Source: a virus. Taken from it: a stretch of 64,000 nt of DNA. Shown one piece after another: positions 5,488 to 60,905 of the stretch. The stretch is taken from positions 126,001 to 190,000 of the IMG/VR virus record IMGVR_UViG_3300021964_000012. One strand, written 5' to 3'. The notes below the pieces were generated by a model. It was not told the origin of the DNA. It searched no databases and worked only from the letters and a program-made list of their open reading frames with translations. Position 1 is the first letter of the stretch; every line of letters begins with the position of its first letter. Position numbers and translations under genes: made by a program.

Positions 5488-5515
5488 TTGAGGCCTTTTG
5501 TTCTTACGTTAACAG

Positions 5516-5523
5516 TATTTAGT
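5516..5523 (-). promoter_or_regulatory. Late-promoter-like octamer (ACTAAATA)
   Basis: Minus-strand ACTAAATA about 30 bases upstream of the gene starting at 5487, in the 165-base divergent gap before phoH. Two mismatches from TATAAATA; the CTAAATA form recurs upstream of other genes in this window (50559, 50603). Confidence 0.4.
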
Positions 5524-5652
5524 CCAATACTGAATTGTGGCCGCTAATATATTTAGCGAATAGTATTGTGATTTCACATACAGTATTTCTTATTTTTTTA
5601 TACTGTAAATATTATTGTGGGTAGCGAATAACCTCAACCTTTAGGAGATACA

Positions 5653-6375: not shown

Positions 6376-6379
6376 AAAT

Positions 6380-6482
6380 TGGCTCTGGGAGAAGGATTCG
6401 AACCTCCAAGGTTAAATATATTGCAGTACATTCAACCATACGGTTAACAGCCGTACGTGTTTACCAATTTCACCATCCCAGA
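6380..6482 (-). tRNA. tRNA with Asn anticodon (GUU) and long variable arm
   Basis: Read on the minus strand. Acceptor arm TCTGGGA/TCCCAGA, then discriminator G73 and encoded CCA. D arm GTG-AAATTGGTAAA-CAC. Anticodon stem TACGG/CCGTA with loop CTGTTAA (anticodon GTT, at 6446-6448). T arm GGAGG-TTCGAAT-CCTTC. The variable region is 31 nt (6408-6438) and folds into an 11-bp stem (two G-U pairs) with loop CTGCAA. U1-A72, G73 and GUU fit tRNA-Asn, but normal tRNA-Asn is class I with a 5-nt variable loop, and the D arm resembles tRNA-Leu. The 5' end lies 6 bases downstream of the synthetase stop at 6489, so the two are probably co-transcribed. Confidence 0.88.
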
Positions 6483-6488
6483 GTATTC

Positions 6489-7319: not shown

Positions 7320-7387
7320 TGCTTTTCCTTTTTTTACCTAAAAAAAATTTGCCCAAAAAAAAATTGGACGTTACTTGTTCATCGAGT

Positions 7388-7395
7388 TATTTATA
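7388..7395 (-). promoter_or_regulatory. Exact T4 late promoter octamer (TATAAATA)
   Basis: Minus-strand TATAAATA, identical to the T4 late consensus, about 70 bases upstream of the synthetase start and overlapping the end of a micro-ORF. It would place the synthetase and tRNA in a late or middle-late transcript. Confidence 0.45.
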
Positions 7396-7477
7396 ATAGT
7401 TTGCCTTTTCCTGACAAATATTGTACAGTTGGTTGTGGCTTGAACCATCTTTGTAATATTTTTTCTAACCAATGCAT
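7391..7477 (-). CDS. Possible 28-residue microprotein
   Basis: Starts MHWLEKILQRW and ends SGKGKLL. A strong GGAGG Shine-Dalgarno lies 6 bases upstream of the ATG, which is the main evidence. Amphipathic, basic. No family recognised. Confidence 0.45.
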   Translation of the reverse strand: MHWLEKILQRWFKPQPTVQYLSGKGKLL

Positions 7478-7487
7478 ATCTTACCTC

Positions 7488-7955
7488 CTAAAACTTACCT
7501 AAAAATCTTGCTATATGATGTACCCATGGCAACAACATTATAGCCATAAATGTGTTAGCACCAGTGTGTGCAAGTGCTATTCGAAGTGTATCGCCTTTGG
7601 GCATGCCATCGCTCACAAAAAAACCGGCTAACCAAATGGTGCCGGTAGTTCCAATGTTTGCGCCTAACACTGCCGCTATGGCTGCAGGCAGAGGCAGTGC
7701 CCCTGAGGCCACCAGTGCAATTATTGCCGTTGTACTTAAACTTGAACTTTGCCAAAGCAGTGTCATTACAATACCACCTAGAAACATATAGATTGGATTG
7801 CCTAAAAAGAAGTTTAAGTGTTCCAAGTTACCCATAGACTTCATACCACCTGAGAACATTTTCAGCCCTATATAAAATACTACCAGTCCAACAAGAGCCG
7901 TCATTATGGGATTGCCTAAGTCCATCCTACATACCTTTTTAATAAGTTTGTTCAT
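7488..7955 (-). CDS. Single-repeat Na+/Pi-cotransporter-like membrane protein
   Basis: 155 residues, about four transmembrane segments. The signature LLWQSSSLSTTAIIALVASG followed by LGANIGTTGT is that of the Na/Pi-cotransporter II family, whose full-length members have two inverted copies of this QSSS repeat in 300-550 residues. Only one copy is present here, so it would have to work as a dimer or modify a host transporter. Phosphate uptake is the inferred role. Start has AAGGAA upstream. Confidence 0.78.
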   Translation of the reverse strand: MNKLIKKVCRMDLGNPIMTALVGLVVFYIGLKMFSGGMKSMGNLEHLNFFLGNPIYMFLGGIVMTLLWQSSSLSTTAIIALVASGALPLPAAIAAVLGANIGTTGTIWLAGFFVSDGMPKGDTLRIALAHTGANTFMAIMLLPWVHHIARFLGKF

Positions 7956-8006
7956 TTATAGTTCCTTTTACAAACTCTATTTAAGCCTATAAATGTTACA
8001 GTTTTA

Positions 8007-8609
8007 TTACATTTGGGTAATTTGCTTATAAACTTCCAACCAATTTTTAACAATTGGATAGTCAACATCTGCATTCATGTTGTGTCCATGCTCCATTAGT
8101 ATTGGACGTAGTCCAAATCTCAAACCAGCAGTTGCATTTTCTGGTTTGTCTTCTAACCAGTAACAGTTTGAACCTGCATACTTGCTGAGTGCTTCATCTT
8201 TGTCTGCACCTGTATCCAAACACACAAGTTTGCTAAATGCAGTTTTACCAAACATCTTTTGCAGATTCATTTCTCTTAGTTTGTATGCATTTTCATCTAA
8301 ACTCAAACTTGTTATACAAATAAAAGTATAACCATGTTGTTCATGTAGTCTTTTAACCCAGTACATAGCATCTCTGAGCACTGGAAGAAAGCCTATTGCG
8401 GCACTTTCATTAAACTGTTTTATTAGTTTTTTAACTTGTTCTTTTGTGATACCGTAACGTTCAGCCATATCATATTTGAACTGGTATCCTTCTGTGGTCT
8501 CAAATCCATGTTGTATCATCCAACAATTAAATGCCCACTCCCAATCTAGTAGTACACCATCACAGTCTGTAAGTATTGTTTTTTCGTATTTGTTATATCT
8601 CATTTTCAT
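8007..8609 (-). CDS. HAD-superfamily phosphatase, 5'-nucleotidase-like
   Basis: About 200 residues. HAD motif I is LTDCDGVLLDW with the Asp nucleophile pair, motif II CITSLS, and motif IV WLEDKPENA. The layout resembles 5'(3')-deoxyribonucleotidases, which would fit phage nucleotide recycling. Start taken at MKMRYNKYEKT, just after the stop of the preceding gene; an in-frame earlier ATG (8684) would overlap that gene heavily and is less likely, and ATG at 8603 is also possible. Confidence 0.78.
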   Translation of the reverse strand: MKMRYNKYEKTILTDCDGVLLDWEWAFNCWMIQHGFETTEGYQFKYDMAERYGITKEQVKKLIKQFNESAAIGFLPVLRDAMYWVKRLHEQHGYTFICITSLSLDENAYKLREMNLQKMFGKTAFSKLVCLDTGADKDEALSKYAGSNCYWLEDKPENATAGLRFGLRPILMEHGHNMNADVDYPIVKNWLEVYKQITQM

Positions 8610-8617
8610 CTTTCTAT

Positions 8618-8830
8618 CTATATTAACATCGGCAACTTTGGATACGGTGTTGCTATACCGTTTTGTTGGTCCAAATAAGCACATATGAACTCTAGCATTA
8701 CTGAATCATGCATGGTTAAGTAGTAGTCTAATGCTTCGATACCTACTGCATCTTCATATACAAAATCGTCTACGTTATTCTTGCTAACGTAGTGTTCAAT
8801 TGCTAATCTTTCAGTTTGTATTGTAAACAT
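8618..8830 (-). CDS. Hypothetical 70-residue protein
   Basis: Acidic small protein with no recognised domain. First gene of a short leftward operon driven by the sigma70-type promoter at 8857-8885, with AAGGAA upstream of its ATG. Followed directly by the HAD phosphatase. Confidence 0.65.
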   Translation of the reverse strand: MFTIQTERLAIEHYVSKNNVDDFVYEDAVGIEALDYYLTMHDSVMLEFICAYLDQQNGIATPYPKLPMLI

Positions 8831-8856
8831 ATTTTTCCTTTTTGTTATTATACTTT

Positions 8857-8885
8857 ACAATAACACAGGAAAAGAATTATGTCAA
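8857..8885 (-). promoter_or_regulatory. Sigma70-type early promoter
   Basis: Minus strand: TTGACA (8880-8885), 17-base spacer, TATTGT (8857-8862), then AAGGAA before the gene starting at 8830. Same GGTTGACA context as other early promoters in the window. Confidence 0.7.
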
Positions 8886-9034
8886 CCTTTTTCTACAATT
8901 TGGCAAAATTTATAAGTTTGAGGACGTTTAGATTCCAAGTCTTTCATGTAAACTTTTGCTTGCTCTTGTGAATCAAATTCAGCAACTGTTATTGGATCTT
9001 GTACTCTTGGTTCATAGACAATGCAATATTTCAT
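8882..9034 (-). CDS. Hypothetical 50-residue protein
   Basis: MKYCIVYEPRVQDP start, ends CQIVEKG. The ATG overlaps the TGA of the gene before it (ATGA), indicating translational coupling. Its last codons run into the -35 box of the promoter at 8857-8885. No family recognised. Confidence 0.65.
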   Translation of the reverse strand: MKYCIVYEPRVQDPITVAEFDSQEQAKVYMKDLESKRPQTYKFCQIVEKG

Positions 9035-9270
9035 TCTTGGTTCATTTCCCACATGTTATAAACATCAGCAAAGCCGCCATACATAGGTGAATATTCACTG
9101 ACGTTTTCTTCTCTCCACGCCATGATCTCGTCCCATTGCTCTTGAGTCAATTCATCGATATCTTCTATATCAAAGTGTGTGCTGATAGCATGCTCAACAC
9201 AACTTTGTGCTTCTCTTTCGAGATGTTCTTCGTCCTTGTACATCCTTGCCCAGTCGAATTTATTAGTCAT
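9031..9270 (-). CDS. Hypothetical acidic 79-residue protein
   Basis: Rich in Glu/Asp/Trp (for example LTQEQWDEIMAWREENV). Overlaps neighbours at both ends by a few bases within a leftward operon of small genes behind apt. No domain recognised. Confidence 0.68.
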   Translation of the reverse strand: MTNKFDWARMYKDEEHLEREAQSCVEHAISTHFDIEDIDELTQEQWDEIMAWREENVSEYSPMYGGFADVYNMWEMNQE

Positions 9271-9451
9271 TGTTTGCCTCCTCTAAGATTTGTTTTCTTC
9301 CTTCGACACCGATCTGTGAATCCATCATGGTTTTTACATGTTGTAGCATTGCACACGCCATCATCAGTATATCTTCTCTGCTATCACACATCATAATCTG
9401 TTGTTCTATTGGCTTGCATAATTCTCGCATGCGAGCTTTTACATCAGTCAT
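9263..9451 (-). CDS. Hypothetical 62-residue protein
   Basis: Helical, Met-rich (MTDVKARMRELCKPIEQQ start). ATG overlaps the apt stop (ATGA-type junction), with GGAG-like sequence upstream. No domain recognised. Confidence 0.65.
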   Translation of the reverse strand: MTDVKARMRELCKPIEQQIMMCDSREDILMMACAMLQHVKTMMDSQIGVEGRKQILEEANND

Positions 9452-9993
9452 TTTGTTATCTCCTCTTGTGTTATATGCAATTGACTTTTCATGTCATCTG
9501 TATTAAGGTACGCCAAGTTTATAATACTAGTAAAACCAATTACACGGGCTTCTGCTTGTTCGATCAAACGTTTGGTTGCCAACATACTGCCGCCAGTTGC
9601 AACCAAGTCATCTGCTATTAACACTCTATTAGCATGTCCTAACAGTCCTTCTTGTAGCACCAATGTATCTTCACCATACTCAAGTGCATAGGTTTCCTGC
9701 AACAAACTACCTGGATACTTGCTTCCTTTTTTACGCACCATAACAAAAGGCACTCCTATTGTAGCAGCCAACACTGCTCCTACTACAAATCCTCTGCTTT
9801 CAATACCCACTATGTGTGTGATATCACCGTTACGGTTGAATTGATCTTGAATTACAACTGCCATTTCGGCAGCAACTTGATTCCAAATTGGTTGTGCGAA
9901 CAAACTGTTTACATCATAAAAGTTTACACCTTCTACAGGATAATCCTGCACAGTTCGCATGTAATCTGTTGGTTTAGTTTTTACTGAAGACAT
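9448..9993 (-). CDS. apt: Adenine phosphoribosyltransferase
   Basis: About 181 residues. The PRPP-binding signature VLIADDLVATGGSM and the upstream GIESRGFVVG loop are characteristic of Apt, which converts adenine plus PRPP to AMP. Start chosen at MSSVKTKPTDYM because GGGAGGG lies 5 bases upstream; a longer form from 10032 is less likely. The start overlaps the methylase 3' end. Purine salvage from degraded host DNA/RNA is the expected role. Confidence 0.88.
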   Translation of the reverse strand: MSSVKTKPTDYMRTVQDYPVEGVNFYDVNSLFAQPIWNQVAAEMAVVIQDQFNRNGDITHIVGIESRGFVVGAVLAATIGVPFVMVRKKGSKYPGSLLQETYALEYGEDTLVLQEGLLGHANRVLIADDLVATGGSMLATKRLIEQAEARVIGFTSIINLAYLNTDDMKSQLHITQEEITK

Positions 9994-13030: not shown

Positions 13031-13059
13031 ATTATATTATGATTAGCGAGGTAAGTCAA
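13031..13059 (-). promoter_or_regulatory. Sigma70-type early promoter for clamp loader
   Basis: Minus strand: TTGACT (13054-13059), 17-base spacer, TATAAT (13031-13036), then AGGAG and the ATG at 13008. Its -35 overlaps the end of the radical SAM gene. Confidence 0.8.
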
Positions 13060-14734
13060 CCAGTTCTGGAAAAACATCTAATAGTTTTACATTGTAGATT
13101 TTATCTCTTTGTTCAATCTCTTTCCAAAATAGTTTAGGATTAAACGTTTCGTTATTGTCCATGGCATGTATAATTGCCATATAACCAGTTGTACTTTTTC
13201 CATAAGGATCAAGTGGGCGTAACCATTCTACATGTTTTTGAAATTTTTCTCGGATTAGATCTTTGAGATACTCAGGAGCAGTTGTAACACGCAGATATTG
13301 CTTGTTGGTTAGTAGGTTCACAATCCATTGGTCAGCATCTATTAATCCTTGCTCTACCCAATTTCGATGAAAGTCTGGCATATGTAATGCGTTCAGAATT
13401 GTAATTGTTGATTGAACATTAAAGAATATATCTGGGCGTTTTTGTTTAATTTGTTTGGTAAAATCGACAATCTTGTCCCAGGTGTATGATCCAGGGCGTA
13501 AATATAACGCACGATCGTATTCAGCATCAAGACTTGCAAATACAATAATATTTTTAAAGTTTTGCCACAACTTAAAAATATCTCTTGAACCTAATCCAGA
13601 ATAAGTCATGTTTGTAATATACATTAGTTTTATATCGTGTCTTTTTTTCTCATCTAGTTTTTCAACAAAATCATATGTTTCTTTCATCATTAAAGGCTCA
13701 CCACCTTCGAATATGATCTGATTAAAATGATCTATATGTTTAAAATATTGTTCTAGTAAATCTGGATTACTTGCTACAAAGGCTTTATCAGGAACAGTCA
13801 TTCCTAGTAACTTTTCCACACTGTAAAGACTACTCGAAAACTTAGTCTGACACATTCTACATTGCAGATTACATAAATTGTTTGGTTTATAGTTCAGTAA
13901 CTTTATTTCAAATTTTTCAAGACTTCCATCATTATTTGTGCTTAAAACACTTGGAAATTCTTGTATGAAGTCTCTATTATAGGCCGTTCTTGCAGTATCA
14001 CCTTTATATTTTTGATCTTTTAAATAGCAAGTTTTACAAGCCTCTAGTTCTTTGCCTTCAAGCATATCAAGTCTAAGTTGGCGTGTATTTTTATTGTTCC
14101 ATATATCTTCAAGAGTTTCGTTGTTTGCATTTCCTAAAGCGGTGTCTGTAGATATGTAACAACAAGGGTTCACCTTATTATCTTGTGTGACATACTGACT
14201 TATCCACGGTAAAACACAAAATGTTTTACTTTCTAAAAATAGGTGCCTTGCTCTATCTGGCAAATTCTCTAAGAGAACACTGTTATTTCCTAGCCCACTA
14301 AAAGTTTGATAGATTGAAATATCTTTATATGTATTTGTATAATCACCTGAAGCTTTGTATAAATTGATTAGCACAGGGTCAACACTTGTGTTTTTATGAA
14401 CCCAAAGATATTCTTCTTCTAAATTAGGATTAGTTGAAATAATAATTGTAAAAAAATTACTAATATCAAGTTCGTTTAACATTGTCTGCACACTTTGTAG
14501 TACAGTGTTAGATTGTAATTCTTTATAAAAATCTTTTGTTATTGTCAATACAATGCGATGGTGTTCTTGATATGTAGTTTTGTAATTTTTTTTTAATTGA
14601 TTATAAAGCTCGAATAGATTATTTTCGTATAAGTCACAATCAATTACATCAAGAACTGTGTATGTTTCTTTTAGTTCATTTATCCATTGTTCTATTGTTG
14701 GGAGATTACTACCTTTGGTAAATGTCAATGGCAT
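13043..14734 (-). CDS. Radical SAM protein with twitch/SPASM-like cysteine cluster
   Basis: 563 residues. N-terminal about 170 residues unrecognised. A Cys-rich segment (about 175-240: FCVLPWISQ, NPCCY, CKTCYLK) resembles SPASM/twitch auxiliary-cluster domains. A radical SAM core follows with CNLQCRMC (CxxxCxxC, about 292) and EGGEPLMM. The auxiliary cluster before the core is the order seen in marine phage 'twitch' proteins. Substrate unknown. Related to 33762-35315. It overlaps the GroES-like gene start by 26 bases. Confidence 0.87.
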   Translation of the reverse strand: MPLTFTKGSNLPTIEQWINELKETYTVLDVIDCDLYENNLFELYNQLKKNYKTTYQEHHRIVLTITKDFYKELQSNTVLQSVQTMLNELDISNFFTIIISTNPNLEEEYLWVHKNTSVDPVLINLYKASGDYTNTYKDISIYQTFSGLGNNSVLLENLPDRARHLFLESKTFCVLPWISQYVTQDNKVNPCCYISTDTALGNANNETLEDIWNNKNTRQLRLDMLEGKELEACKTCYLKDQKYKGDTARTAYNRDFIQEFPSVLSTNNDGSLEKFEIKLLNYKPNNLCNLQCRMCQTKFSSSLYSVEKLLGMTVPDKAFVASNPDLLEQYFKHIDHFNQIIFEGGEPLMMKETYDFVEKLDEKKRHDIKLMYITNMTYSGLGSRDIFKLWQNFKNIIVFASLDAEYDRALYLRPGSYTWDKIVDFTKQIKQKRPDIFFNVQSTITILNALHMPDFHRNWVEQGLIDADQWIVNLLTNKQYLRVTTAPEYLKDLIREKFQKHVEWLRPLDPYGKSTTGYMAIIHAMDNNETFNPKLFWKEIEQRDKIYNVKLLDVFPELVDLPR

Positions 14735-30482: not shown

Positions 30483-32378
30483 TCAACCTTTTTCTAGAAA
30501 AAGAGTTGTTTTTTCTGTGGAATATTCTACACGAGCCTGCCATTTTTTGTTTTTACGTGTACTGTTCATCCACTGTGGCCAGGTCACAACCAAGCCTTTT
30601 GCTGGATATGCTCTGTGTATTCGATAGTCAGTAGGGCGAATATTGAGGTCTTCTTTACCAAGTGCATATTCAAACACGTTGGCTCCTAGTGTTATTTCTG
30701 TCACTGGCTCATGTGCAAATATAGTTTGCTGCCGTTCTTGTATGTACATTAAATCTAAGATTAGTTTATCATCTGGAGCAAAGTGTTGTGCTACTGTAAG
30801 TATATCTTGGAAAGTTTGTGAACGATTGGTTATTCCTAGATCTTCAATTACAGGTGCATAGGTTAAACCTGCTAAGAACATATTGAATTCTAAGCGATCA
30901 GCATAACCTTGCCATTTTGTCAGCCATTTGTGTGCCGCACAATCTTTGTTTTCTAATCCCCAGTCTAACATATACTCATAAAACTTTTCAAATGGTACGC
31001 CGTGACGTTTGTTTAGATATCGTGTAATAATCTGTGTAAAACCATTGGCATCCATCATTGAAGTGTACCAAGTCCATAACCATAGTTTCTTCATTTGTTC
31101 TGCAGGCAAATCTTTTGTGCCTGTGAGTGTTTCTTGATATTCATCTACTATATTAGAAAAATAACTTTTAAGGGTGGTTTGTGTAATACCGTGTTTTTTC
31201 TTGTATTCAGGTTCATTCATCTCTGAGTTTTCAAGAATAGTCACAGGATATGCTTCTACAATAATATCTCTGCTCAACAGATCACACAAGCCTGTAGTCC
31301 ATGACTTCCAGGTTTCTCCGGGCAAGCCAATTATTAATTCTGTGTTTATGCTTAACCCTTCTTTGTGAGCAGTGTCTGCTACTTTCTGCATGGCTTCTTC
31401 TTTGAGATTTACACGTTTAATATGCTTCAGAACTTCTGGATTGGTACTTTGCAACGCCATAGTAAAACGTCGCATCATATCGGCTTCCATCAGTTTAACT
31501 GCCATGTCGACCAACTGCACTGTGGCATTTTTACTCCAGTTGGTATCAAACAACACTGGAAATCCATACTTCTTTTTTGTGCGAATAAGCATATCTGTGA
31601 TTTCCATATCTCTATCTTTGAATATACCAAAATTAGCATCTGTGTTTGTTATTAGTTCTAGTTTGTTTCGGCCTATCCATTCTAGTTCAGCTTCAATGCG
31701 TTCTAGGTTAAACTTCTTTACTTTAGAAAAGGTTGTACCTCCCCAGTCACAGAAGGTACACATAAACGGACAACCTCTGTTGGTTTCCAATACTGCATTC
31801 CAAATTTTACCTGGATACATGTCAGGCAAATGATCAAACAGTCCCATCAGATAAGGCGATGGTACTGCTGACAAATCCATTATACGTTGACTTGGACCTG
31901 TTAACACTGTCTTGCCGTTACGGTTGATGCTGATACCAGGCACCATTTCTTCGTCTTGTTTGCCGACAAAACTTTGCAACAATCCAGTAAAACTTATTTC
32001 ACCTTCTTGGTGTATGAGATAATCAATATAGGGTTTGTCTGCAAAAAAGTTTTCTGACTTGTTTGGTGTTTCTGCGCCACCAATAATTATTTTACATTCT
32101 GGATAACGAGCCTTTACGGCTTTAGCCAAAGCCTGATTGTAACTTACGTTCCATACGTAACTGCTTAGTCCAACAACCGCAGGGTCAACCATCTTATCCA
32201 CCAGCATGTCGATTGGCTCTTTTACACTGTACAAACCTGCAAGACAATAGTTGTCAAGTATATGAGGTTGTGTAGTTGCATAGGCCCAAACAACACCAAC
32301 ACTATATGGAAAGTAATAATAGTTGCTACCTGGCAACTCCAGACTCATTTGTGCCATGTAAACATTCTTCATATTCAT
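30483..32378 (-). CDS. B12-binding-type radical SAM protein
   Basis: 631 residues. The N-terminal about 150 residues resemble a cobalamin-binding Rossmann domain (VVGLSSYVWN, IIIGGAETP). The radical SAM core has CPFMCTFCDWGG (CxxxCxxC, about 208-215) and later NTELIIGLPGETW. The C-terminal 200 residues resemble the DUF4080-like tail of such proteins. The usual DxHxxG cobalamin motif is not evident, so B12 use is uncertain. Substrate unknown; class members do methylations or rearrangements. Confidence 0.85.
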   Translation of the reverse strand: MNMKNVYMAQMSLELPGSNYYYFPYSVGVVWAYATTQPHILDNYCLAGLYSVKEPIDMLVDKMVDPAVVGLSSYVWNVSYNQALAKAVKARYPECKIIIGGAETPNKSENFFADKPYIDYLIHQEGEISFTGLLQSFVGKQDEEMVPGISINRNGKTVLTGPSQRIMDLSAVPSPYLMGLFDHLPDMYPGKIWNAVLETNRGCPFMCTFCDWGGTTFSKVKKFNLERIEAELEWIGRNKLELITNTDANFGIFKDRDMEITDMLIRTKKKYGFPVLFDTNWSKNATVQLVDMAVKLMEADMMRRFTMALQSTNPEVLKHIKRVNLKEEAMQKVADTAHKEGLSINTELIIGLPGETWKSWTTGLCDLLSRDIIVEAYPVTILENSEMNEPEYKKKHGITQTTLKSYFSNIVDEYQETLTGTKDLPAEQMKKLWLWTWYTSMMDANGFTQIITRYLNKRHGVPFEKFYEYMLDWGLENKDCAAHKWLTKWQGYADRLEFNMFLAGLTYAPVIEDLGITNRSQTFQDILTVAQHFAPDDKLILDLMYIQERQQTIFAHEPVTEITLGANVFEYALGKEDLNIRPTDYRIHRAYPAKGLVVTWPQWMNSTRKNKKWQARVEYSTEKTTLFLEKG

Positions 32379-33761: not shown

Positions 33762-35315
33762 ATGCGAATATTAGTACTAGGAAATAACACAAAAGATACT
33801 GACGATCAAGTCAAAGAGCTTGCAGAGAAGGCTGGTACATATAATCACGGGCTCGTTGAAACAACAGATCAAGATTTCTCACAACACGGATATTACCACA
33901 CCACATTAATAGATTTATCACCTGGTGAAATAATGAAATTTGTACACCAGTTTGATGAAGTGATGGTGTTAGATCAACCAGCAAGGAGTTGGGATAGTCA
34001 AAAGCCAAGACTTAGCACCTATAAGTTGATCACTTCCCTAGAAAGACAGAGCAATAGACTAGGTCTTAAAGTTAGCGGTACTGATAATGACAGTTTTGTT
34101 GATATGAAGTATTGGACAGATTTGTTCAAATCAAATCGAAGTTTTTGTGCTTATCCATGGATAGTACATAGTCAAGACAAGGTTGATGCTAATAAATTAA
34201 ATCTTTGTGCTCGAAGTTCGCACGAAGTCACTTCATTAAAAGATCTTGGCAACTGGCAAACAAATCCTGCCTTTACAAAAATTAGAGAAAAAATGAAACG
34301 TGGCGAAAAACTTCCAGGCACATGTCGTGTATGTTACAAATACGAAGATCGTGGATTAACAGGATATAGAACACACGACAGCCTAGACTGGATTGCACGT
34401 TTAGGACTAAAAAATATTAAAGATTTTGACAAGATAGATAGTCCGTATTATTATGAGCTTAGACTTAGTAACCGATGCAACCTAATGTGTCGAATGTGTA
34501 CACCTCAACACAGTCATCTACTAAAGCAGGAGTTTGAAGAAAATCCTGGTTTGGTCAATAGTGGCCAGATGGACGATCCAACCCAAAGTTGGACAGATAC
34601 CGGTGTAGTTGACATAGAAAAATTAACATCTAAACATAAAGTTTACCTAACCGGCGGTGAGCCAATTATTATGCATGAAGTCTATGCATTCATGCGACAA
34701 TGCATAGACTTAAGAAAAACTGATTTTCTTTTTACCCTTGGAACAAATGCTCAACGATTAAATCCATTGTTCTTAAATCTTGCTAGTAAATTTAGCAATA
34801 TGCACTTCAGTGTAAGTATTGATGGTTATGGAAAAGTAAATGATTATATAAGATGGAAAAGTGATTTTGATACCATAATTAAAAATTGTCATATTCTAAT
34901 CAATCAAGGACACCAAATAACATGGAATCATGTTCCAACCATATGGGGAGTACATCGAACACACGAATTGTTTGAATACGTCAGCGAACATTTTCCTAAG
35001 GTTCCTCTCTATTTACAATACAATCGTGTTGAAATTACCAGTGCATTTAAAAGTCCGCTCATTGAGGAGACAATCGAAAGCATGGAACGATGTAAAAAAA
35101 CAATATTGTACACTAGTGACGGCAAAGACTGTACCAGTGGAATTGATGCTTTTTATGATCACTATAGTAGATATAAAGTTAACAAAGATGATTTAAAAAA
35201 GTTTTTTACATGGAATGATTTAATGGACAAAGCCAGAAATATATCAATGGCAGATTATATCCCAGAGCTAGACAGATGCAGAACAATGCTAGAGGTGAAC
35301 CAGAATGCAATTTGA
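33762..35315 (+). CDS. Radical SAM protein with twitch/SPASM-like domain
   Basis: 517 residues. Auxiliary Cys region FCAYPWIVHS, LNLCARSS, CRVCYKYED (about 126-200), then radical SAM CNLMCRMC (about 239-246) and TGGEPIIMHE. Homologous in layout to 13043-14734. First gene of the plus-strand accessory operon; substrate unknown. Its end overlaps the next gene by about 10 bases. Confidence 0.87.
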   Translation: MRILVLGNNTKDTDDQVKELAEKAGTYNHGLVETTDQDFSQHGYYHTTLIDLSPGEIMKFVHQFDEVMVLDQPARSWDSQKPRLSTYKLITSLERQSNRLGLKVSGTDNDSFVDMKYWTDLFKSNRSFCAYPWIVHSQDKVDANKLNLCARSSHEVTSLKDLGNWQTNPAFTKIREKMKRGEKLPGTCRVCYKYEDRGLTGYRTHDSLDWIARLGLKNIKDFDKIDSPYYYELRLSNRCNLMCRMCTPQHSHLLKQEFEENPGLVNSGQMDDPTQSWTDTGVVDIEKLTSKHKVYLTGGEPIIMHEVYAFMRQCIDLRKTDFLFTLGTNAQRLNPLFLNLASKFSNMHFSVSIDGYGKVNDYIRWKSDFDTIIKNCHILINQGHQITWNHVPTIWGVHRTHELFEYVSEHFPKVPLYLQYNRVEITSAFKSPLIEETIESMERCKKTILYTSDGKDCTSGIDAFYDHYSRYKVNKDDLKKFFTWNDLMDKARNISMADYIPELDRCRTMLEVNQNAI

Positions 35316-35841
35316 ATTTTTTACAGGCGTTCCTGGCAGTCGCTGGAGCGGAATAGCAGGTGAGATAAAACTAGCACCTGAATATGACACATCAGACCGT
35401 GCACCACACAGAGTGTATACACACCATGAATTCGCAGGACACAAAGAAGCATATTTTGGTACAGGTATGGAGTTTTCGTGCAACCTTGACAAAGAGAATC
35501 TTGCGGCTCCATTTGCAAAAAACACAACTACATTGACCAAATTGCTAATGTCTCACGAATGGCCATACTATTTTGATGAAATTGTAGAGCAGTACCCTGA
35601 CGCACCAATTACACTTGTATATCGTAACAACGAAGCCTCAATGGACTGGTGGCTTGAAGCAGGTGGATTCAACATTACCTATCCCAACTACGAATTCTAC
35701 TGTGATACCACTGGCATGTGGGAACAAATAGAAAAACAGAACAAACTAATACTTGACTTTGGACAGAAACACATGCTACAATGGAAACAACATCACACTC
35801 ACAGTGATATTTTTATTGCAACTTATCGAGGTAAACCATGA
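35305..35841 (+). CDS. Phage protein with P-loop-like start, sulfotransferase-like
   Basis: 178 residues. FFTGVPGSRWSGIA at the N terminus resembles the PAPS-binding loop of sulfotransferase-type P-loop proteins. The remainder is unrecognised. Overlaps both neighbours, so co-translated with the radical SAM gene and the methyltransferase. Confidence 0.55.
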   Translation: MQFEFFTGVPGSRWSGIAGEIKLAPEYDTSDRAPHRVYTHHEFAGHKEAYFGTGMEFSCNLDKENLAAPFAKNTTTLTKLLMSHEWPYYFDEIVEQYPDAPITLVYRNNEASMDWWLEAGGFNITYPNYEFYCDTTGMWEQIEKQNKLILDFGQKHMLQWKQHHTHSDIFIATYRGKP

Positions 35842-36518
35842 ATCATAAAATACTCAACAAACTAGAACAGATGATCCATATATCACCTCAACTTTTACGC
35901 AATGCAAATACCATGCGTCAAGCAATACAGGCTACATTCAACGTTACCGTAGAGGATGTTGAATATGCAAACATTGGACAACTAGTGGATAGGATCGATG
36001 ACAAAGTCCTTGAACATTATTTTGCCAACGTTTGGCAAGGTGAAATGTCAAAATACAAGTACAGTGGTCCTGCATTAATAGATGAAATAAACAAACTAAA
36101 ACCTAGACGTGTGCTAGATATTGGATGTGGGTATCATGAGTTTCGAGGCAAGATAGACAATATCATAGGTATTGATCCTTATAATACAAAAGCAGACATG
36201 ATGATAAAACTACTGGATTATCATCCTCAAGAACGTTTTGATGCAGTACTAGCACTAGGCTCAATTAACTTTGGATCAACAGATAAAATATTTGCTGAAC
36301 TAGAACATGCAGTCAGTTTGTGCAATCCAGGTGCAGTACTATTTTTTAGAGCAAATCCAGGACTGCCACACGATAAAACAGAATCAAGTTGGATCAGTTT
36401 CTATCCCTGGGACGCAAACTTTGTGGTAAACTGTGCTAATCAACTGGGTGTAGACATATTGGATCTACGTACAGACAGTCATAAAAATCGACTGTACTTT
36501 GTTTGGCGTACTAAGTAA
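35838..36518 (+). CDS. SAM-dependent methyltransferase-like protein
   Basis: 226 residues. Motif I RRVLDIGCGYHEFRG and acidic loop NIIGIDPYN define a class I methyltransferase. Substrate unknown. ATG overlaps the stop of the gene before it (ATGA). Confidence 0.78.
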   Translation: MNHKILNKLEQMIHISPQLLRNANTMRQAIQATFNVTVEDVEYANIGQLVDRIDDKVLEHYFANVWQGEMSKYKYSGPALIDEINKLKPRRVLDIGCGYHEFRGKIDNIIGIDPYNTKADMMIKLLDYHPQERFDAVLALGSINFGSTDKIFAELEHAVSLCNPGAVLFFRANPGLPHDKTESSWISFYPWDANFVVNCANQLGVDILDLRTDSHKNRLYFVWRTK

Positions 36519-36613: not shown

Positions 36614-38053
36614 GTGGCGGAAATTTATGCCCTTGTGGCAGGTACATTGTATGGACTACTAATAGGTATTATACCCGGAGCAGGTGCTACCACTGGCTTG
36701 ATATTCTTGTTTCCTTTTATGATGATGTTTCCAGATCCTTATCTAGCAGTAATATTTGTAATGGCAGTGGTAGCAGCCTCAACAACAGGTGATACTTACA
36801 CTGGTGTGTTGCTAGGAATACCCGGTGCTAACAGTGCAGCCGCTACCATGGTAGATGGATTTCCACTTGCACTTCAAGGTCGTGCAACCTATGCTATCAG
36901 TGCCGCAGTAACAACATCAACTGTTAACGGATTACTATGGGGTAGTTTGGTTTTCTTTTTATTGCCTTGGTATACAGGACTTATAATGATATTTGGTGTT
37001 CCTGAGCTGTGGGCTTTTACCTTGCTTGCACTGGTAACAGTGACCTTTGTAAGTAACCGATGGTGGATACGTGGATTAATTGCATTATGCACAGGAATAT
37101 TTGTTGGAATGATAGGCGTGGATCCAAATACAAATGCTGATCGTTTTACATTTGGTTGGGAATACTTAGGCGATGGCGTGCAAATATTGCCAATGATTGC
37201 AGGCTTGTTTGCCATACCAGAGTTATTGGATGGACTTAAAAACAGACACACAACTGCTTCAGCAACAACTACAAATGGAACACAGACTCGTGAAGGAATC
37301 TTAGCAGTATGGAGCAATCGTTGGTTAGCACTACGTGGAGGATTCATTGGTGCATTTATTGGTATACTTCCAGGACTAGGTGGAGCAATGGCAGACTGGA
37401 TGGCATATGGTCAGGCAGTTGCTACAACAAAGAATCCTTCAGTGCCTTTTGGCAAAGGCAACATCAGAGGAGTAATTGGGCCAGAAGGTGCTAACAATGC
37501 ACAAAAAGCAACATCAATGATTCCTACAGTTTTATTTGGAATACCTGGAGCTCCTTTTGCGGCTATTATTATTGGTTTGTTTATGTACTTGGACTTTGAG
37601 CTTGGTACTATTGATCTAGCACAAGACGATCAATTCTTTGATAGTATGCTTTATGGATTCATGTTGGCAACACTGTTGGTTGGTGCTCTATGCTTATGGT
37701 TAACAAAATATATTGCCATGATTGCGACTGTGCCTTACAAATACTATTTTCCTCTACTGTTAACGTTTATAATAGCGGCATGTGTACAATACACAGGTGG
37801 ATGGGAAGATTATGCTATATTGATCGTCTGCTCCATAGTAGGAATCAGTGCAAAGAAATTCAAGTTCTCAAGACCTGCAATGCTATTTGGTTTTATACTT
37901 GCAGAAAGAGTTGAGGCTTTAACTATACAGATGCACGGTCTGTATACATTCGACAGACTGTTAACTCGTCCTATATTTTGGACATTGTTAGCAGTTGTAA
38001 TAGCTGTGTTAATTTGGGGTTTAACCAAACGCAGTAAACTAGATTATGCATAA
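36614..38053 (+). CDS. tctA: TctA-family tricarboxylate transporter permease
   Basis: 479 residues, about 10-12 transmembrane segments, close to the usual about 500 of TctA. Signature loops GLLIGIIPGAGATTG, LLGIPGANSAAATMVDGFPL and GILPGLGGAMADWM match the TctA family, the large permease of tripartite tricarboxylate transporters. The first possible start is GTG (VAEIYALVAG); an upstream in-frame stop at 36581 limits alternatives. No TctB follows. Paired with a TctC-like binding protein directly downstream. Confidence 0.9.
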   Translation: MAEIYALVAGTLYGLLIGIIPGAGATTGLIFLFPFMMMFPDPYLAVIFVMAVVAASTTGDTYTGVLLGIPGANSAAATMVDGFPLALQGRATYAISAAVTTSTVNGLLWGSLVFFLLPWYTGLIMIFGVPELWAFTLLALVTVTFVSNRWWIRGLIALCTGIFVGMIGVDPNTNADRFTFGWEYLGDGVQILPMIAGLFAIPELLDGLKNRHTTASATTTNGTQTREGILAVWSNRWLALRGGFIGAFIGILPGLGGAMADWMAYGQAVATTKNPSVPFGKGNIRGVIGPEGANNAQKATSMIPTVLFGIPGAPFAAIIIGLFMYLDFELGTIDLAQDDQFFDSMLYGFMLATLLVGALCLWLTKYIAMIATVPYKYYFPLLLTFIIAACVQYTGGWEDYAILIVCSIVGISAKKFKFSRPAMLFGFILAERVEALTIQMHGLYTFDRLLTRPIFWTLLAVVIAVLIWGLTKRSKLDYA

Positions 38054-38068
38054 CATAGGAGAAATAGA

Positions 38069-39112
38069 ATGCGTAAATTACTACTAACACTAGCATTATT
38101 GCTAGGCTACACTAGTTCAGCAGTTGCTGATTATACGTTTGTTGTACCTCAAAGAGCAGGACAAGGAACAACTGTTTGGGCAGAAATTATTGCCAAAGAA
38201 CTAGAGCCTTTTTTAGGTGAAAAGATTAAAATTAAAATGTTACCGGGTGCAAGAGATATTCCTGGATTTAACAAATGGCACAATGATCTAAGATTAGATG
38301 ACAAAACTGTGATGGTATCTCATGGCGGTAATGGTGTTTCATTTTTACAAGAGAAAGTAGACTATGACTATAGACAGTACGATAGTGTTGGCATGATGAA
38401 TTTAAATATCATTGCCGGTAAACGCAAGGGTGCTGACATGGACAAGCCAGTATTTCCAGCAGGTTCTGGAATGGTGCCTGAGGCTTTTGCAATGGCGTTG
38501 CTTATATGTGGTCCAGACAAAACAGTTGATGAATACATAGCATGTTTCAAAAAAAATGTTACTTGGGTTAAAGGAATGAAAACATCAGAAAGACGTTTAG
38601 CATTCAAACGTGGTGAATTAACAGGCACACGAGAGAATCCAGCAACTTACAAAAAACACGTTGCACCAGACGAGAATGCAGAACTTTGGTTTCATCATGG
38701 ACTACTACAAGCAGATGGTTCTCATGCAGACGATCCAAACTTTCCAGGATTACAAATGGAAATCCTTTATGAAGTATATTGGAAACAGGCTCCTAAAGGT
38801 GAATTCTACGATGCTTACAAGCTGGTAAAATCATTCCGTGATGGATTACAAAAAGCATTATGGGTAAACAAAGGAAACCCAAACAGAGATAAACTTGCGG
38901 CGGCACTTACTGCAATGAGCAAGGACCCAACTGCAATTGCTAACCTGATCAAAAAGAACGGTAAGTATGATTGGTACATTGGAAAAGCAGGTGATGCACA
39001 ACGTGATAAACTGTTGACCTTTGTTACAGAAAAATCACTTAAAAACCTAGTAAAGTTCAATAAAGAAGCACTAGGACTTAAGAGTATATACAAGGAAGGC
39101 TTAGTAAAATAA
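38069..39112 (+). CDS. TctC-like periplasmic solute-binding protein
   Basis: 347 residues. Cleavable signal peptide (MRKLLLTLALLLGYTSSAVA). YTFVVPQRAGQGTTVWAEIIAKEL is the start of the TctC/Bug fold, which binds carboxylates for TctA. AGGAG precedes the ATG, 15 bases after tctA. Ligand cannot be inferred. The stop overlaps the next start (TAATG). Confidence 0.85.
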   Translation: MRKLLLTLALLLGYTSSAVADYTFVVPQRAGQGTTVWAEIIAKELEPFLGEKIKIKMLPGARDIPGFNKWHNDLRLDDKTVMVSHGGNGVSFLQEKVDYDYRQYDSVGMMNLNIIAGKRKGADMDKPVFPAGSGMVPEAFAMALLICGPDKTVDEYIACFKKNVTWVKGMKTSERRLAFKRGELTGTRENPATYKKHVAPDENAELWFHHGLLQADGSHADDPNFPGLQMEILYEVYWKQAPKGEFYDAYKLVKSFRDGLQKALWVNKGNPNRDKLAAALTAMSKDPTAIANLIKKNGKYDWYIGKAGDAQRDKLLTFVTEKSLKNLVKFNKEALGLKSIYKEGLVK

Positions 39113-39777
39113 TGGAAAGCAACTGGGACAAACTAAAGCCTAGAACTGACTACCATTTTGATCCTTTTAAAACAGACCCGGCATACGACAGTATGCGATA
39201 TGTCGGGCGTTTTATTGGTGATTGGAGTCAAGAACTAGATGCAACAATTGAATCAAGTAAAGAAATTACTTGGCGTAATAGAAATCCAAAAGACGGAACA
39301 AGCAAAGATATTGTAGCCGAAGAATATGATTTGATTCGTTCTGGTGCCGATGCTGACCTGGTGCTCACCAACCTTGAATATGAATTACTGCCTGTGTTTC
39401 GACGAATGACAGATACATTACATTTATCAGGTGGTGATAAAAAAGAAATACAAAGTCGAGTGCATGTTCAATATCCTGGACAAGTATGGAACTTGCACAT
39501 TGATAAACTTGAAAAATGGTTACCTGAAGATCCACATAGTGTATATCGATTTATGGTTATGCTAAATGATTGGGAACCTGGACACTTCATACAGTATGGC
39601 AACTTTGTACACACAGGCTATCGTGCTGGTGAAATATACAGTTTTGATTGGTATAATACTCCACACTGCACGGCTAATGCTGGTTTAGGCCCACGTTGTA
39701 CACTGTTAGTTACAGGTGTAGCAACAGATAGCACACTGCGTATGTTTAGCAAATACAATAATAAAATAGAAATATAA
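39112..39777 (+). CDS. 2OG-Fe(II) oxygenase-like protein
   Basis: 221 residues. Iron ligands HID (HxD, in WNLHIDKLEKW) and distal His in TPHCTANAG, with the 2-oxoglutarate-binding Arg in GPRCTLLVTG. Hydroxylation is the expected reaction; substrate unknown. Related in motif layout to 59177-59692. Confidence 0.78.
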   Translation: MESNWDKLKPRTDYHFDPFKTDPAYDSMRYVGRFIGDWSQELDATIESSKEITWRNRNPKDGTSKDIVAEEYDLIRSGADADLVLTNLEYELLPVFRRMTDTLHLSGGDKKEIQSRVHVQYPGQVWNLHIDKLEKWLPEDPHSVYRFMVMLNDWEPGHFIQYGNFVHTGYRAGEIYSFDWYNTPHCTANAGLGPRCTLLVTGVATDSTLRMFSKYNNKIEI

Positions 39778-39779
39778 CA

Positions 39780-40019
39780 ATGTCAAAAGAAAACAACCGA
39801 GTGATAGTCTGCATTAAATATGCAAGTGCAGTCGTTATACTTGTTGCAATGGTACTGCATGTTGCAGGCATAACTCCATGGAACAGCATACTACAAATGA
39901 TAGGTGCTAGTGGTTGGATTTATGTAGGATATAAATGGAATGAGAAAGCAATCATACTAAACTTTTTACCACAGTTTGCTATTATCGTTCCTATGTTAAT
40001 TTGGATGTATCTATTATGA
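39780..40019 (+). CDS. Small membrane protein, about 3 TM
   Basis: 79 residues with hydrophobic segments at about 12-30, 33-50 and 58-77. Follows the TctC and oxygenase genes. TctB proteins are small 4-TM proteins, so this could be a TctB stand-in, but similarity is not evident. Confidence 0.65.
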   Translation: MSKENNRVIVCIKYASAVVILVAMVLHVAGITPWNSILQMIGASGWIYVGYKWNEKAIILNFLPQFAIIVPMLIWMYLL

Positions 40020-40034
40020 GAACTAAGTAAAAAC

Positions 40035-40709
40035 ATGGACAACATATTCATTATATTCTCGCCCGGAAGTGGTGGGAACCATCTTGCTAATATATTAAGC
40101 ACTGCTGATAATTTTGTCAGCAGGTGTACTGTTGAAGATTATGATCACCATCCAACGCCGGAGCAACAAAGCCGTGCTTATGCAAATGCACATTATTCTA
40201 AAATTGATAATCTTGATCCTGATATTGTAAAAAATTTACCACCAACGACCAATGTCTTATGCGGTCATTTTTACAGCTATAATCGTCTAGAATTGTTAGA
40301 ATTAACTAATAAATTTGTGAACAAAGTTATTGTTGTATTAGAACCACCTATTTCAGGACTTGCCTACAAAAGATATATGTATCACAATGATAAAATTCGA
40401 CCACAACTTTACAATGAGCAGCGTTTGATTTATTCAACACATTTTATTAAAAAATATTTTAATCAAAAAACTGTGTCTATTTCATGTGAAGCAATTTTTG
40501 AACACAAATTAGACAGGCTATATTCCATTATCGAAGATAAATTAGATCTTGAGGTTGACAAAAATATGTGTAATCAAATACACAAAAAATGGCACTGGCC
40601 GGTTAATCTTGAACAGAGCAACCGTCCCAAAATTCCCCAACATCCTTTATATCATGATATAAAGGATGACATCCTTACTTTAAAGCCACTTGTCAGAGGT
40701 AAAATCTAA
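40035..40709 (+). CDS. Sulfotransferase-like P-loop protein
   Basis: 224 residues. FIIFSPGSGGNHLANIL at the N terminus is a PAPS-binding-loop-like sequence, and VIVVLEPPISGLAYKR may be the 3'-phosphate-binding region. The rest is divergent. Acceptor unknown. Co-transcribed with an APS-kinase-like gene. Confidence 0.6.
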   Translation: MDNIFIIFSPGSGGNHLANILSTADNFVSRCTVEDYDHHPTPEQQSRAYANAHYSKIDNLDPDIVKNLPPTTNVLCGHFYSYNRLELLELTNKFVNKVIVVLEPPISGLAYKRYMYHNDKIRPQLYNEQRLIYSTHFIKKYFNQKTVSISCEAIFEHKLDRLYSIIEDKLDLEVDKNMCNQIHKKWHWPVNLEQSNRPKIPQHPLYHDIKDDILTLKPLVRGKI

Positions 40710-41431
40710 TGTATTCAATCAACCAACCATGGGATTCACTGGACATATGTGTTGTTGGGCGTACCTATCCGCCACATGCTTTTGATTCATTAGAAGATGT
40801 AGAATACAAAACTCAATTGCAAAAAATAGCCACTGAAACTGAAGAAGATTTTTGTAATTTAATTAATACTTTACATAAATTTAATGTACACACCATACGT
40901 CCATATGTTTCAGTGCTGCCAGACATTAATGACATCGCAAGTCCAGAAAGTATGAAACCACGTCGTGGATTGCGTATGATTGGCAATGACTTTTATTTTT
41001 ATCCTAATAATTATGTAATAGAAACTTCAAATTGGAACAAGTCAGTGTATGAAAACCTAAAAGGTTCTAGTTGGCCAAAAGAATTTACTGCTTACGAACA
41101 ATTGCCTGATTGGATAAAACAAGAATGCACAGATATTTTAAACTTTACATATGATCCAGATGCAGATATAATCCTTGATGAAACAAATTGGTGGCAACCA
41201 ATTGTTAATGTAGTCGAAGGTGCAGGTAATGCAATTGTAAACGAAAAACCTGAAGAAATTACCAAACCAAATGATATACTTGTCATAGACTCAAAAAATA
41301 TTATTGTAAGCAAAAATTCTGAACATCTCAATTATCACGACTGCACAGTTCATGTTTGTGAGTTTCGACACAAGAACTTTTGGAATTGTGACATATATGA
41401 TTTAACATTAGATATTAATAGAACGGCGTAA
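40709..41431 (+). CDS. Amidinotransferase-like protein lacking catalytic Cys
   Basis: 240 residues. The N terminus (INQPWDSLDICVVGRTYPPH) and C terminus (FWNCDIYDLTLDINRTA) align with amidinotransferases. The C-terminal active-site block, usually GG-I/H-H-C-VTLD, here reads NCDIYDLTLD, so His is Tyr and Cys is Asp. It is about 70 residues shorter than the full-length relative at 58248-59180. Probably catalytically dead or repurposed. Confidence 0.65.
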   Translation: MYSINQPWDSLDICVVGRTYPPHAFDSLEDVEYKTQLQKIATETEEDFCNLINTLHKFNVHTIRPYVSVLPDINDIASPESMKPRRGLRMIGNDFYFYPNNYVIETSNWNKSVYENLKGSSWPKEFTAYEQLPDWIKQECTDILNFTYDPDADIILDETNWWQPIVNVVEGAGNAIVNEKPEEITKPNDILVIDSKNIIVSKNSEHLNYHDCTVHVCEFRHKNFWNCDIYDLTLDINRTA

Positions 41432-59180: not shown

Positions 59181-59692
59181 TCAATTACTCCAGTAATTTG
59201 TAGTGTATATCTAGATGTTTTTCCAACATTGGCTGCAAGATGCGGAGTGTCATTTTTCCATACTATGTAATCGCCAGCACGCCAGTCTGTGATTACTGTG
59301 TCTTCAATTTCACTTACATGGCCACTTTGCCAATCTTCTAAATAAATTATGGCTCTGTGAATATCACCTTGCCAGTTGTGTAGTTCGCGAAATCTTGCGT
59401 AGGTATCTCCATGCATTGGTAAACAACAACCTGGATTCATTCTATACACACTCCAACTAAAATAGCGCCAGTCAAATACATTACGTATTAGATGCATCCA
59501 TTCAGGTTCTTCTTGTCGCATGTCATACATGTCACCTGTGAATTTGGTCTGTGTGTAACCGAGGTTACGCCATTCCTTTAAACTTACAGGATCATTGAAT
59601 GGTTCGTTGATGTACATTAGGTCTTTGAATGCATCCATCCATACAGGATAGGTGTGACCACTATACCAGTTTTTTTGTTCTTGTATTTCCAT
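59177..59692 (-). CDS. 2OG-Fe(II) oxygenase-like protein
   Basis: 171 residues. HGD in LPMHGDTYARF, distal His in TPHLAANVG, and Arg in SRYTLQITG fit the double-stranded beta-helix fold. Overlaps the dehydrogenase gene by about 30 bases. Substrate unknown. Confidence 0.78.
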   Translation of the reverse strand: MEIQEQKNWYSGHTYPVWMDAFKDLMYINEPFNDPVSLKEWRNLGYTQTKFTGDMYDMRQEEPEWMHLIRNVFDWRYFSWSVYRMNPGCCLPMHGDTYARFRELHNWQGDIHRAIIYLEDWQSGHVSEIEDTVITDWRAGDYIVWKNDTPHLAANVGKTSRYTLQITGVID

Positions 59693-60905
59693 AGTGTATT
59701 ACTTTGTACTTGTTGGTTTTTGTAGGCAGTGTACGCCATGGGTCTACAATTGTAGATCCATTGGGTATGTCGCAGTAGAAATTACTCATTACTGCAATAT
59801 GGCCAGTGTAACCATATGTAATGTTTCTGTTATGTGCATAGAGTATTATTGATGGTTCGTTAATTTTGTCAACACAATTCGTATTATCGTCGGCTAGTGG
59901 ATCAACATAGGTAATTTTTTGTCCTTGTTGTTCAATGTAGTATCCAACCAGTGTGCTATAACTTCCAATACAGAATGGTACGTCTGGCTTGTATGCTTTG
60001 CCGTGTATAACAATTGGTTTTCCATCTGCATGCTCTATTAAAAAATCTGCTAGGTTCTTTGCTTGTACTTCTCTGGCACCCATTATAGTATCAAACATGT
60101 CGTAACCAATGTTGTATTCCTGTGCTAGCCAACGCAGAGCAATATTATCTCTTGGATGGCATGCTCCTGCATCTCCCATGCCGGCAGTCATATACTTTGG
60201 CCCCATAATACGCATTGTACTTTGTGCTAGAGCATCAGTAACAACATCAACGTTGATATTACCTATCTTAAGTGCAAAGTCCTGTATCATATTTACAAGC
60301 CCTACTTTAGCACTAATAAATGTGTTGTAGAATATTTTAATTGCTTCACATTCGTCCCAAGTTCCTGTAACATATCTTGGATCATTTTTCATCAATGGTT
60401 TATATAGATTGATAAGATCTTCCATCTCACTTGGATTGCCTGTTTCTGTTCCTATCATTACCATTTCAGGATTTGCAAAATCCCATTTTACACTACCCAT
60501 TGCAATTAAATATGGATTGTACAAAAATTGATGCTTGTTATCCAACAGGGTATAGAAGTGTCTACGTGTTGTACCAGGTAAGACTGTTGATATCAATACT
60601 ATACGTTTTGGTTTGGTTGCATTTTCATTCACCATTTGAATTGCATCTTTAACTGCATCATGACCAAAGTCTCGTGGTTCCATATGTGAACTTGGCACAC
60701 TGCCATCATAGCCTTCTGCATGGGGCGTTTGTACTGCAATAAATATCCAGTCACTGTTGTCTATCATTTCTTTTGGTGTGTTGCAAACTTTTACACTGTC
60801 GCTGGTACGTGGGTAAATATCATAACCATGCACACTATATTTTTCAGCCATAACTTCAGCACAATCAAGACCAAGTTTTCCCAAGCCTATAAATCCAATT
60901 TTCAT
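59661..60905 (-). CDS. UDP-glucose/GDP-mannose dehydrogenase family
   Basis: 414 residues. N-terminal NAD site IGFIGLGKLGLD, catalytic Cys in AGACHPRDNIALRW, and C-terminal VIHGKAYKPDV domain. Oxidises a nucleotide sugar to a uronate. With glycosyltransferase and amidinotransferase nearby, a glycan role is likely. Confidence 0.87.
   Translation of the reverse strand: MKIGFIGLGKLGLDCAEVMAEKYSVHGYDIYPRTSDSVKVCNTPKEMIDNSDWIFIAVQTPHAEGYDGSVPSSHMEPRDFGHDAVKDAIQMVNENATKPKRIVLISTVLPGTTRRHFYTLLDNKHQFLYNPYLIAMGSVKWDFANPEMVMIGTETGNPSEMEDLINLYKPLMKNDPRYVTGTWDECEAIKIFYNTFISAKVGLVNMIQDFALKIGNINVDVVTDALAQSTMRIMGPKYMTAGMGDAGACHPRDNIALRWLAQEYNIGYDMFDTIMGAREVQAKNLADFLIEHADGKPIVIHGKAYKPDVPFCIGSYSTLVGYYIEQQGQKITYVDPLADDNTNCVDKINEPSIILYAHNRNITYGYTGHIAVMSNFYCDIPNGSTIVDPWRTLPTKTNKYKVIHYGNTRTKKLV

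Follow-up and report, generated by a model that had tools for sequence, protein, structure and literature searches.

The closest described relatives of the locus reported here are the tripartite tricarboxylate transporters (TTT), whose prototype, TctCBA, combines the solute-binding protein (SBP) TctC with the membrane subunits TctB and TctA, and whose bacterial variants include loci where a TctA-TctB fusion is encoded next to an SBP and a PrpF-like protein, such as that on plasmid pCP157_01 of Paracoccus marcusii, beside tcuAB. Here we describe adjacent genes for a TctA permease and a TctC/Bug-type SBP in a 64,000-nucleotide stretch of viral DNA (positions 126,001 to 190,000 of IMG/VR record IMGVR_UViG_3300021964_000012; hereafter the window). 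The phage locus resembles the prototype in that its TctA has both glycine motifs and its SBP the predicted TctC/Bug fold, whereas it differs in the absence of a detected TctB, in an SBP that lies beyond the Pfam TctC model and in a permease gene that precedes the SBP gene. With the bacterial fusion loci it shares the permease family, a divergent SBP subfamily and the adjacency of the two genes; there, however, the permease has a TctB-like tail and PrpF or tricarballylate genes lie nearby, while the phage TctA is tail-less and often accompanied by a dioxygenase gene. We propose, with a probability of about 0.62, that the two predicted products form a virus-adapted TctA + TctC-type importer of a di- or tricarboxylate, which lacks a TctB of its own and possibly feeds 2-oxoglutarate enzymes.

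Genes of this kind have been reported from viruses before. A tctA domain and a 2-oxoglutarate oxygenase appear among the putative auxiliary metabolic genes (AMGs) of SUP05 viral contigs, the role of tctA being called unknown (Roux 2014, PMC4164917), and tricarboxylate-transport genes surround norB/nirK on a T4-like myovirus scaffold on which, as in the window, a clamp loader gene and a gp9-like one are also seen (Gazitua 2020, PMC8115048). The passages of these papers that concern the transport genes mention them in passing and describe no SBP, dioxygenase linkage or gene family. In BFVD, proteins of uncultured Caudovirales phages labelled PBP2_Bug_TTT or Bordetella-uptake (e.g. A0A6J5T247) have the same fold as our SBP at 11-15% identity. 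A literature search, supplementary files aside, returned no paper devoted to a phage TctA + SBP pair. Phage-borne genes of this transporter type are already known; a viral TctB-less TTT-type importer would be new and, to our knowledge, a permease encoded by a phage together with its dedicated binding protein has seldom been described.

Results

The original prediction, made from the letters of the window alone, had recognized a near full-length TctA permease adjoined by a signal-peptide-bearing TctC-type binding protein, and both identifications hold. The TctA reading frame (Table 1) matches PF01970 over profile positions 2-422 of 423 (E=2.7e-99), and its start codon is supported by an ATG at the same residue in 37 of the 45 listed alignment rows, one of which is the window itself with its GTG. 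Both copies of the G-x3-G-x3-G-x2-P-G-x-G motif, assigned to transmembrane segments TM1 and TM7 in a review of the family (PMC5812351), are present, at residues 10 and 242; across 73 viral TctAs the TM7 copy is found in 71, and the TM1 copy in 68 in a relaxed form and in only 17 in the strict form. A PDB search with the TctA sequence profile gave no meaningful match, and GenBank phages yielded seven weak TctA matches only (26-30% identity, most in records that look like bacterial or faecal DNA) and no relative of the SBP.

Searches of Pfam, PHROGs and NCBIfam returned nothing for the SBP. PF03401, which models TctC in Pfam, also misses two bacterial relatives encoded beside fused permeases (0 families; E=0.064, below the cut-off), and it therefore seems not to cover this SBP subfamily. 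Since a sequence search of the PDB with the SBP profile was only marginal, with BugD (E=0.029) and TctC (E=0.063) mixed among unrelated proteins, a predicted fold was needed to identify the protein. We thus turned to an AlphaFold2 model computed from the window protein aligned with 29 relatives from viruses (pLDDT 89.1), for which rows 1-15 of the Foldseek PDB list are all TctC/Bug family binding proteins and VIA-align returns 11 TctC/Bug-type entries at Z 17.3-20.0 (root-mean-square deviation (rmsd) 3.3-4.2 over 262-273 residues), the next protein scoring 11.9. The 11 entries are Bug, TctC, MatC, terephthalate-binding and oxoadipate-binding proteins, with 2dvz titled only 'periplasmic transporter', and the PDB titles name malate, oxoadipate and terephthalate as ligands of solved proteins of this fold. 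On this model the predicted fold of the 347-residue protein is that of TctC/Bug proteins, and its N-terminus is signal-peptide-like by eye. An R-L-A-F/Y-x-R motif is present in 75 of 75 viral SBPs and visible in seven bacterial relatives.

A profile scan of IMG/VR confirmed the SBP in 402 of 431 pattern-matching stretches, 80 of which were kept for follow-up, and in the counterpart scan, which covered 84,980 prokaryote species, one of 31 stretches was confirmed, that of 'Marine bacterium B5-7'; the two scans have one of two patterns in common and reach close relatives only. TctA lies upstream of the SBP at all 63 distinct SBP-found loci with at least 1.6 kb of upstream sequence, within 150 nt in 55 of them. 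With TctA-found loci added, the count becomes 83 of 83, within 150 nt in 72 and 384-2036 nt away at the remaining 11, several of which have other genes of the set in between. The original prediction had proposed to look for the neighborhood in marine viromes, and many related viral stretches do carry the pair. Reading frames are intact at 73 of 75 TctA loci and 75 of 75 SBP loci, and the ratio of nonsynonymous to synonymous substitution rates (dN/dS, own script) against the nearest three relatives is 0.05 (TctA), 0.077 (SBP) and 0.10 (downstream dioxygenase gene), so that all three genes are under purifying selection. Against eight viral relatives TctA gives 0.05-0.16; rough values for more distant relatives are 0.07-0.23, with 0.41 for one paralogue of the dioxygenase gene, in pairs whose synonymous sites are near saturation or, for two SBP pairs, fully saturated. 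In a tree the viral TctAs and that of B5-7 separate from 15 other bacterial TctAs (support 100/99).

The source record measures 328,292 bp and encodes the T4 capsid protein gp23 (PF07068, E=4.5e-100). In a search of 34 records with the pair, a large share of them short fragments, gp23 was present in this one and four others. The original prediction described phage genes on both sides of the pair, and the window does carry a clamp loader, a short baseplate/tail-fibre-connector match, an endolysin-family match and PhoH. The order methyltransferase-TctA-SBP-dioxygenase-DUF6552 is repeated on three contigs from metagenomes 3300025137, 3300025138 and 3300035162, two of whose numbers are consecutive and perhaps belong to one study. 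TctA and SBP of these contigs are 97% and 95% identical to those of the window, and about 30% of synonymous sites differ; the contigs therefore represent related viruses and not one assembly. They show no listed match to the radical SAM gene left of the core or to the two genes on its right (40035-41431). The pair thus belongs to a genuine viral genome and is kept by selection, which makes the genes candidate AMGs that may change host metabolism during infection.

Directly downstream, a gene whose start overlaps the SBP stop codon by one base encodes, as judged by predicted fold and motif, an Fe(II)/2-oxoglutarate dioxygenase. Residues H129, D131, H185 and R195 are invariant in its alignment (17 of 17 rows) and the H-x-D...H...R pattern is kept in 36 of 36 viral relatives; in such enzymes H-x-D...H is the metal triad and the downstream arginine contacts 2-oxoglutarate. 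The modeled protein (pLDDT 82.8) is a double-stranded beta-helix whose best VIA-align match is proline 3-hydroxylase (Z 12.5, rmsd 3.2, 148 residues); apart from a putative oxygenase, the 50 listed rows consist of Fe/2-oxoglutarate enzymes, and the Foldseek list also holds other cupin-fold enzymes, e.g. phosphoglucose isomerase. Of 46 loci with sufficient flanking sequence, 28 have the gene no more than 5 kb from the SBP, as do 22 of 35 in the SBP-found set. Where 8 kb of flank was available on either side (16 loci), tblastn, whose figures here and below count hits rather than genes, placed 15 dioxygenase hits at most 4 kb from the SBP and no hit between 4 and 8 kb. In ten records longer than 100 kb the best dioxygenase match is 324-1475 bases from TctA in nine and 48 kb away in one, as measured with a profile built from genes beside TctA; one locus is common to two of these records, and among the 18 matches 8 are weaker and lie elsewhere in the records. 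The link between dioxygenase and SBP is thus real and frequent, and it is not universal.

A second TctA is encoded in the same record outside the window (Table 1), in a locus spanning positions 2758-9686 of record stretch 66001-84000. It is followed by a 320-residue protein with a signal-peptide-like start and, one gene further on, by three proteins with the H-x-D...H...R pattern, an arrangement that is suggestive of a recurring association between TctA and dioxygenase-like genes. A second TctA occurs in 3 of 34 records. Assignment of the 320-residue protein to TctC found no support, with no Pfam, PDB or profile match; it has three viral relatives only. A serine hydroxymethyltransferase gene (PF00464) also lies near this locus.

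The single close bacterial locus, that of B5-7 (BQJD01000039.1), is set among bacterial-looking genes and matches the phage at 53% in TctA, 57% in the SBP, 37% in the 178-residue protein and 35% in the methyltransferase. No match to the 221-residue dioxygenase type was found in the 17-kb B5-7 stretch; other 2-oxoglutarate-oxygenase-like genes are visible on the contig by eye. Its TctA falls inside the viral group in a quick tree (SH-aLRT 95), and a phage origin of this copy is unsupported in a careful tree (p-AU 0.389); the tree data would place it either inside the viral TctA group or sister to it, and gene exchange between such phages and the B5-7 bacterium is possible. The contig also holds, by eye, YcaO/TfuA-like, radical SAM and sulfotransferase-like genes.

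More distant relatives provide clues to the substrate. Among 398 genomes sampled from the phylum of the B5-7 genome, 44 gave a match to the SBP profile. Seven proteins stood out, with E=3e-13 to 1e-17 along their middle and C-terminal portions, and the other matches were mainly weak and N-terminal. Five of the loci were fetched, and in these the neighbors, named by eye, are the SBP, a 649-665-residue permease fusion and a PrpF-like gene (PrpF being confirmed by Pfam in two, and the SBP of one seen through an overlapping stretch); an isocitrate/isopropylmalate dehydrogenase gene follows in one. Identity between the phage and these fusion systems is 24-32% for the SBP (four loci) and 35-38% for TctA (five loci). 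A distant SBP relative also occurs in ten plasmid records, two of which were opened; that of Paracoccus marcusii encodes an SBP (28% identity) beside a TTT permease, a '4-oxalomesaconate tautomerase' and TcuA/TcuB (tricarballylate use). Rhodobacterales relatives of the SBP are likewise distant, at about 27-28% identity among the matches listed. Gene context thus points to tricarboxylates or related acids as probable substrates of the bacterial branch and, for the virus SBP at 24-32% identity, a tricarboxylate-type substrate is no more than a lead. Known reactions convert citrate, aconitate and tricarballylate to 2-oxoglutarate, and such routes would fit the neighboring dioxygenase.

TctB had been called missing from the locus unless the small membrane protein downstream of the dioxygenase stood in for it. 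Consistent with the first part of that claim, PF07331 detected TctB in none of the ten virus records longer than 100 kb, some of them possibly fragments, and in three of three bacterial genomes by the same search. Outside B5-7, the 14 best bacterial TctAs of the sample are 649-683 residues long and carry a C-terminal extension, which in a profile comparison with four proteins encoded where TctB lies in ordinary TctA loci gave a probability of 91% (E=1.1e-6); Pfam TctB had no match in the three fusions scanned. The phage TctA lacks this TctB-like part. The second part of the claim fared differently, as the small protein belongs to DUF6552 and a role as stand-in finds no support by descent: hhalign gave 0.9% against canonical TctB and 0.4% against the fusion tail, versus 91% for the positive control. 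As no TctB was found and DUF6552 is not homologous to it, we file the system as a TctB-less variant rather than a complete TTT. DUF6552 lies near the TctA + SBP pair in 17 of 46 loci, and bacterial members exceed the cut-off in 9 of 398 genomes. No TctA was recognized by eye in the six bacterial DUF6552 loci viewed. Judging the neighbors likewise by eye, four of these loci have a short-chain dehydrogenase-like gene, one has choline/betaine genes and one has a cytochrome-oxidase gene. One bacterial DUF6552 gene is flanked by genes that look like those for choline dehydrogenase and betaine aldehyde dehydrogenase, which offers a hint on the family.

Upstream of TctA lie a methyltransferase-like gene and a gene for a possibly sulfotransferase-like protein (Table 1). 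With no identity threshold, 44 of 46 loci have the former within 5 kb and 35 have the latter; at 45% identity or more the numbers are 26 and 16, and given this drop both links are weaker than first apparent. At the 16 loci with 8-kb flanks the methyltransferase gave 14 hits within 4 kb and one beyond, and the 178-residue protein 13 and one. The T4 late-promoter-like sequence TATAAATA is absent from the operon region and occurs once per strand in the whole window, where ARAGORN detected zero tRNA genes. Elsewhere the window encodes three radical SAM proteins (30483-32378, minus strand; 33762-35315, plus; 13043-14734, minus), one of which is KedN5-type B12-dependent methyltransferase-like (below the model cut-off), one a twitch-domain protein (over the NCBIfam cut-off) and one phrog_14086-like, together with a UDP-glucose dehydrogenase-like protein (59661-60905, minus; phrog_9148), a class II aminoacyl-tRNA-synthetase-like protein (6489-7319, minus) and a DnaJ protein (1733-2527, minus).

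Table 1. Coordinates of the transporter genes and their neighbors (window positions unless stated otherwise)
Feature	Position	Strand	Product (aa)	Basis or remark
Possibly P-loop sulfotransferase-like protein	35305..35841	+	178	Sulfotransfer_4 E=0.062, below cut-off
Methyltransferase-like protein	35838..36518	+	226	Methyltransf_23 E=1.2e-5, 25.5 bits vs cut-off 27
TctA permease	36614..38053	+	479	GTG start; full length, unfused
TctC/Bug-type SBP	38069..39112	+	347	predicted fold; signal-peptide-like N-terminus (by eye)
Predicted Fe(II)/2-oxoglutarate dioxygenase	39112..39777	+	221	fold and motif
DUF6552 small membrane protein	39780..40019	+	79	PF20189 E=1.1e-11; not a TctB homologue
Second TctA	record 74301-75569, outside window			PF01970 E=2.5e-61

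Discussion

We propose a model in which the phage SBP, judging by its predicted fold and N-terminus, would be exported to the host periplasm to bind a small di- or tricarboxylate and would pass this ligand to the phage TctA in the inner membrane, where entry would proceed by ion symport as expected from the family. TctA may function without TctB, may be joined by a host TctB or may be helped by an unrelated small protein, e.g. DUF6552. The imported acid would then enter the host tricarboxylic acid cycle and provide more carbon, reducing power and 2-oxoglutarate during infection, the last of which the dioxygenase encoded just downstream would use as co-substrate. A more far-reaching proposal, which we regard as doubtful though worth stating, is that marine T4-like viruses have evolved a TctB-independent carboxylate importer with a nearly virus-exclusive SBP family and a coupled dioxygenase, and that the imported acid yields the 2-oxoglutarate driving viral Fe(II)/2-oxoglutarate enzymes; if true, the TctA-SBP-dioxygenase set would be a substrate-supply and enzyme module rather than a stray transporter.

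Several observations weigh against an importer of this description. TctB was not found in the ten long virus records, and in deletion work on one bacterial system, as cited in the family review, both membrane subunits were essential (PMC5812351). The phage ligand may also be a different one, as both SBP and TctA show low identity to the bacterial systems on which the substrate lead is based, and Sagittula stellata carries an SBP and permease without PrpF or Tcu genes. Finally, the dioxygenase is absent near the pair in 18 of 46 loci and is therefore not obligatory.

Among other explanations, the one we take most seriously, though we consider it unlikely, is that a host TctB is borrowed or that the SBP mainly serves a host TctA/TctB, the phage redirecting an existing importer to another substrate much as cyanophage PstS is thought to serve the host phosphate permease. 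The contrast between virus records (TctB in 0 of 10) and bacterial genomes (3 of 3), as well as the TctB-like tail on the 14 best bacterial TctA relatives outside B5-7, would agree with such borrowing; on the other hand, with TctA upstream at 63 of 63 SBP-found loci the virus brings its own permease, and the host would have to provide a TctB that matches it. We think it distinctly improbable that the SBP instead acts as a sensor or scavenger, e.g. of metal carboxylates, with a benefit in metal or signal supply rather than carbon: the downstream enzyme should indeed need iron, but a permease accompanies the SBP at every locus checked, and no two-component regulator was recognized beside the SBP, albeit without a systematic search.

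A T4-like marine virus has been described with tricarboxylate-transport genes inside what is probably a genomic island (PMC8115048), in line with the idea that the locus is recently captured host DNA with no function in the virus, yet the 402 viral stretches, the deep viral TctA group, the clean frames and the dN/dS of 0.05-0.10 leave that idea with very little probability. An assembly chimera, or a bacterial contig taken for a virus, has a probability close to nil. TctA is common in bacteria, but gp23 is encoded on this and four other pair-bearing records, the core order is found on three contigs at 95-97% protein identity, and 84,980 prokaryote species hold one close relative. A chimeric join with bacterial DNA at the TctA + SBP locus, which the original prediction had itself named as the finding that would overturn it, is thus very unlikely and was not borne out.

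A virus-adapted importer without its own TctB would offer a natural test of the need of TctA for TctB, a subunit whose function the family review calls unknown (PMC5812351), and it provides a concrete substrate-supply hypothesis for the 2-oxoglutarate dioxygenases of such phages. If the pair works as proposed, many viruses would help set which organic acids are taken up by the infected cell, with a bearing on organic carbon use.

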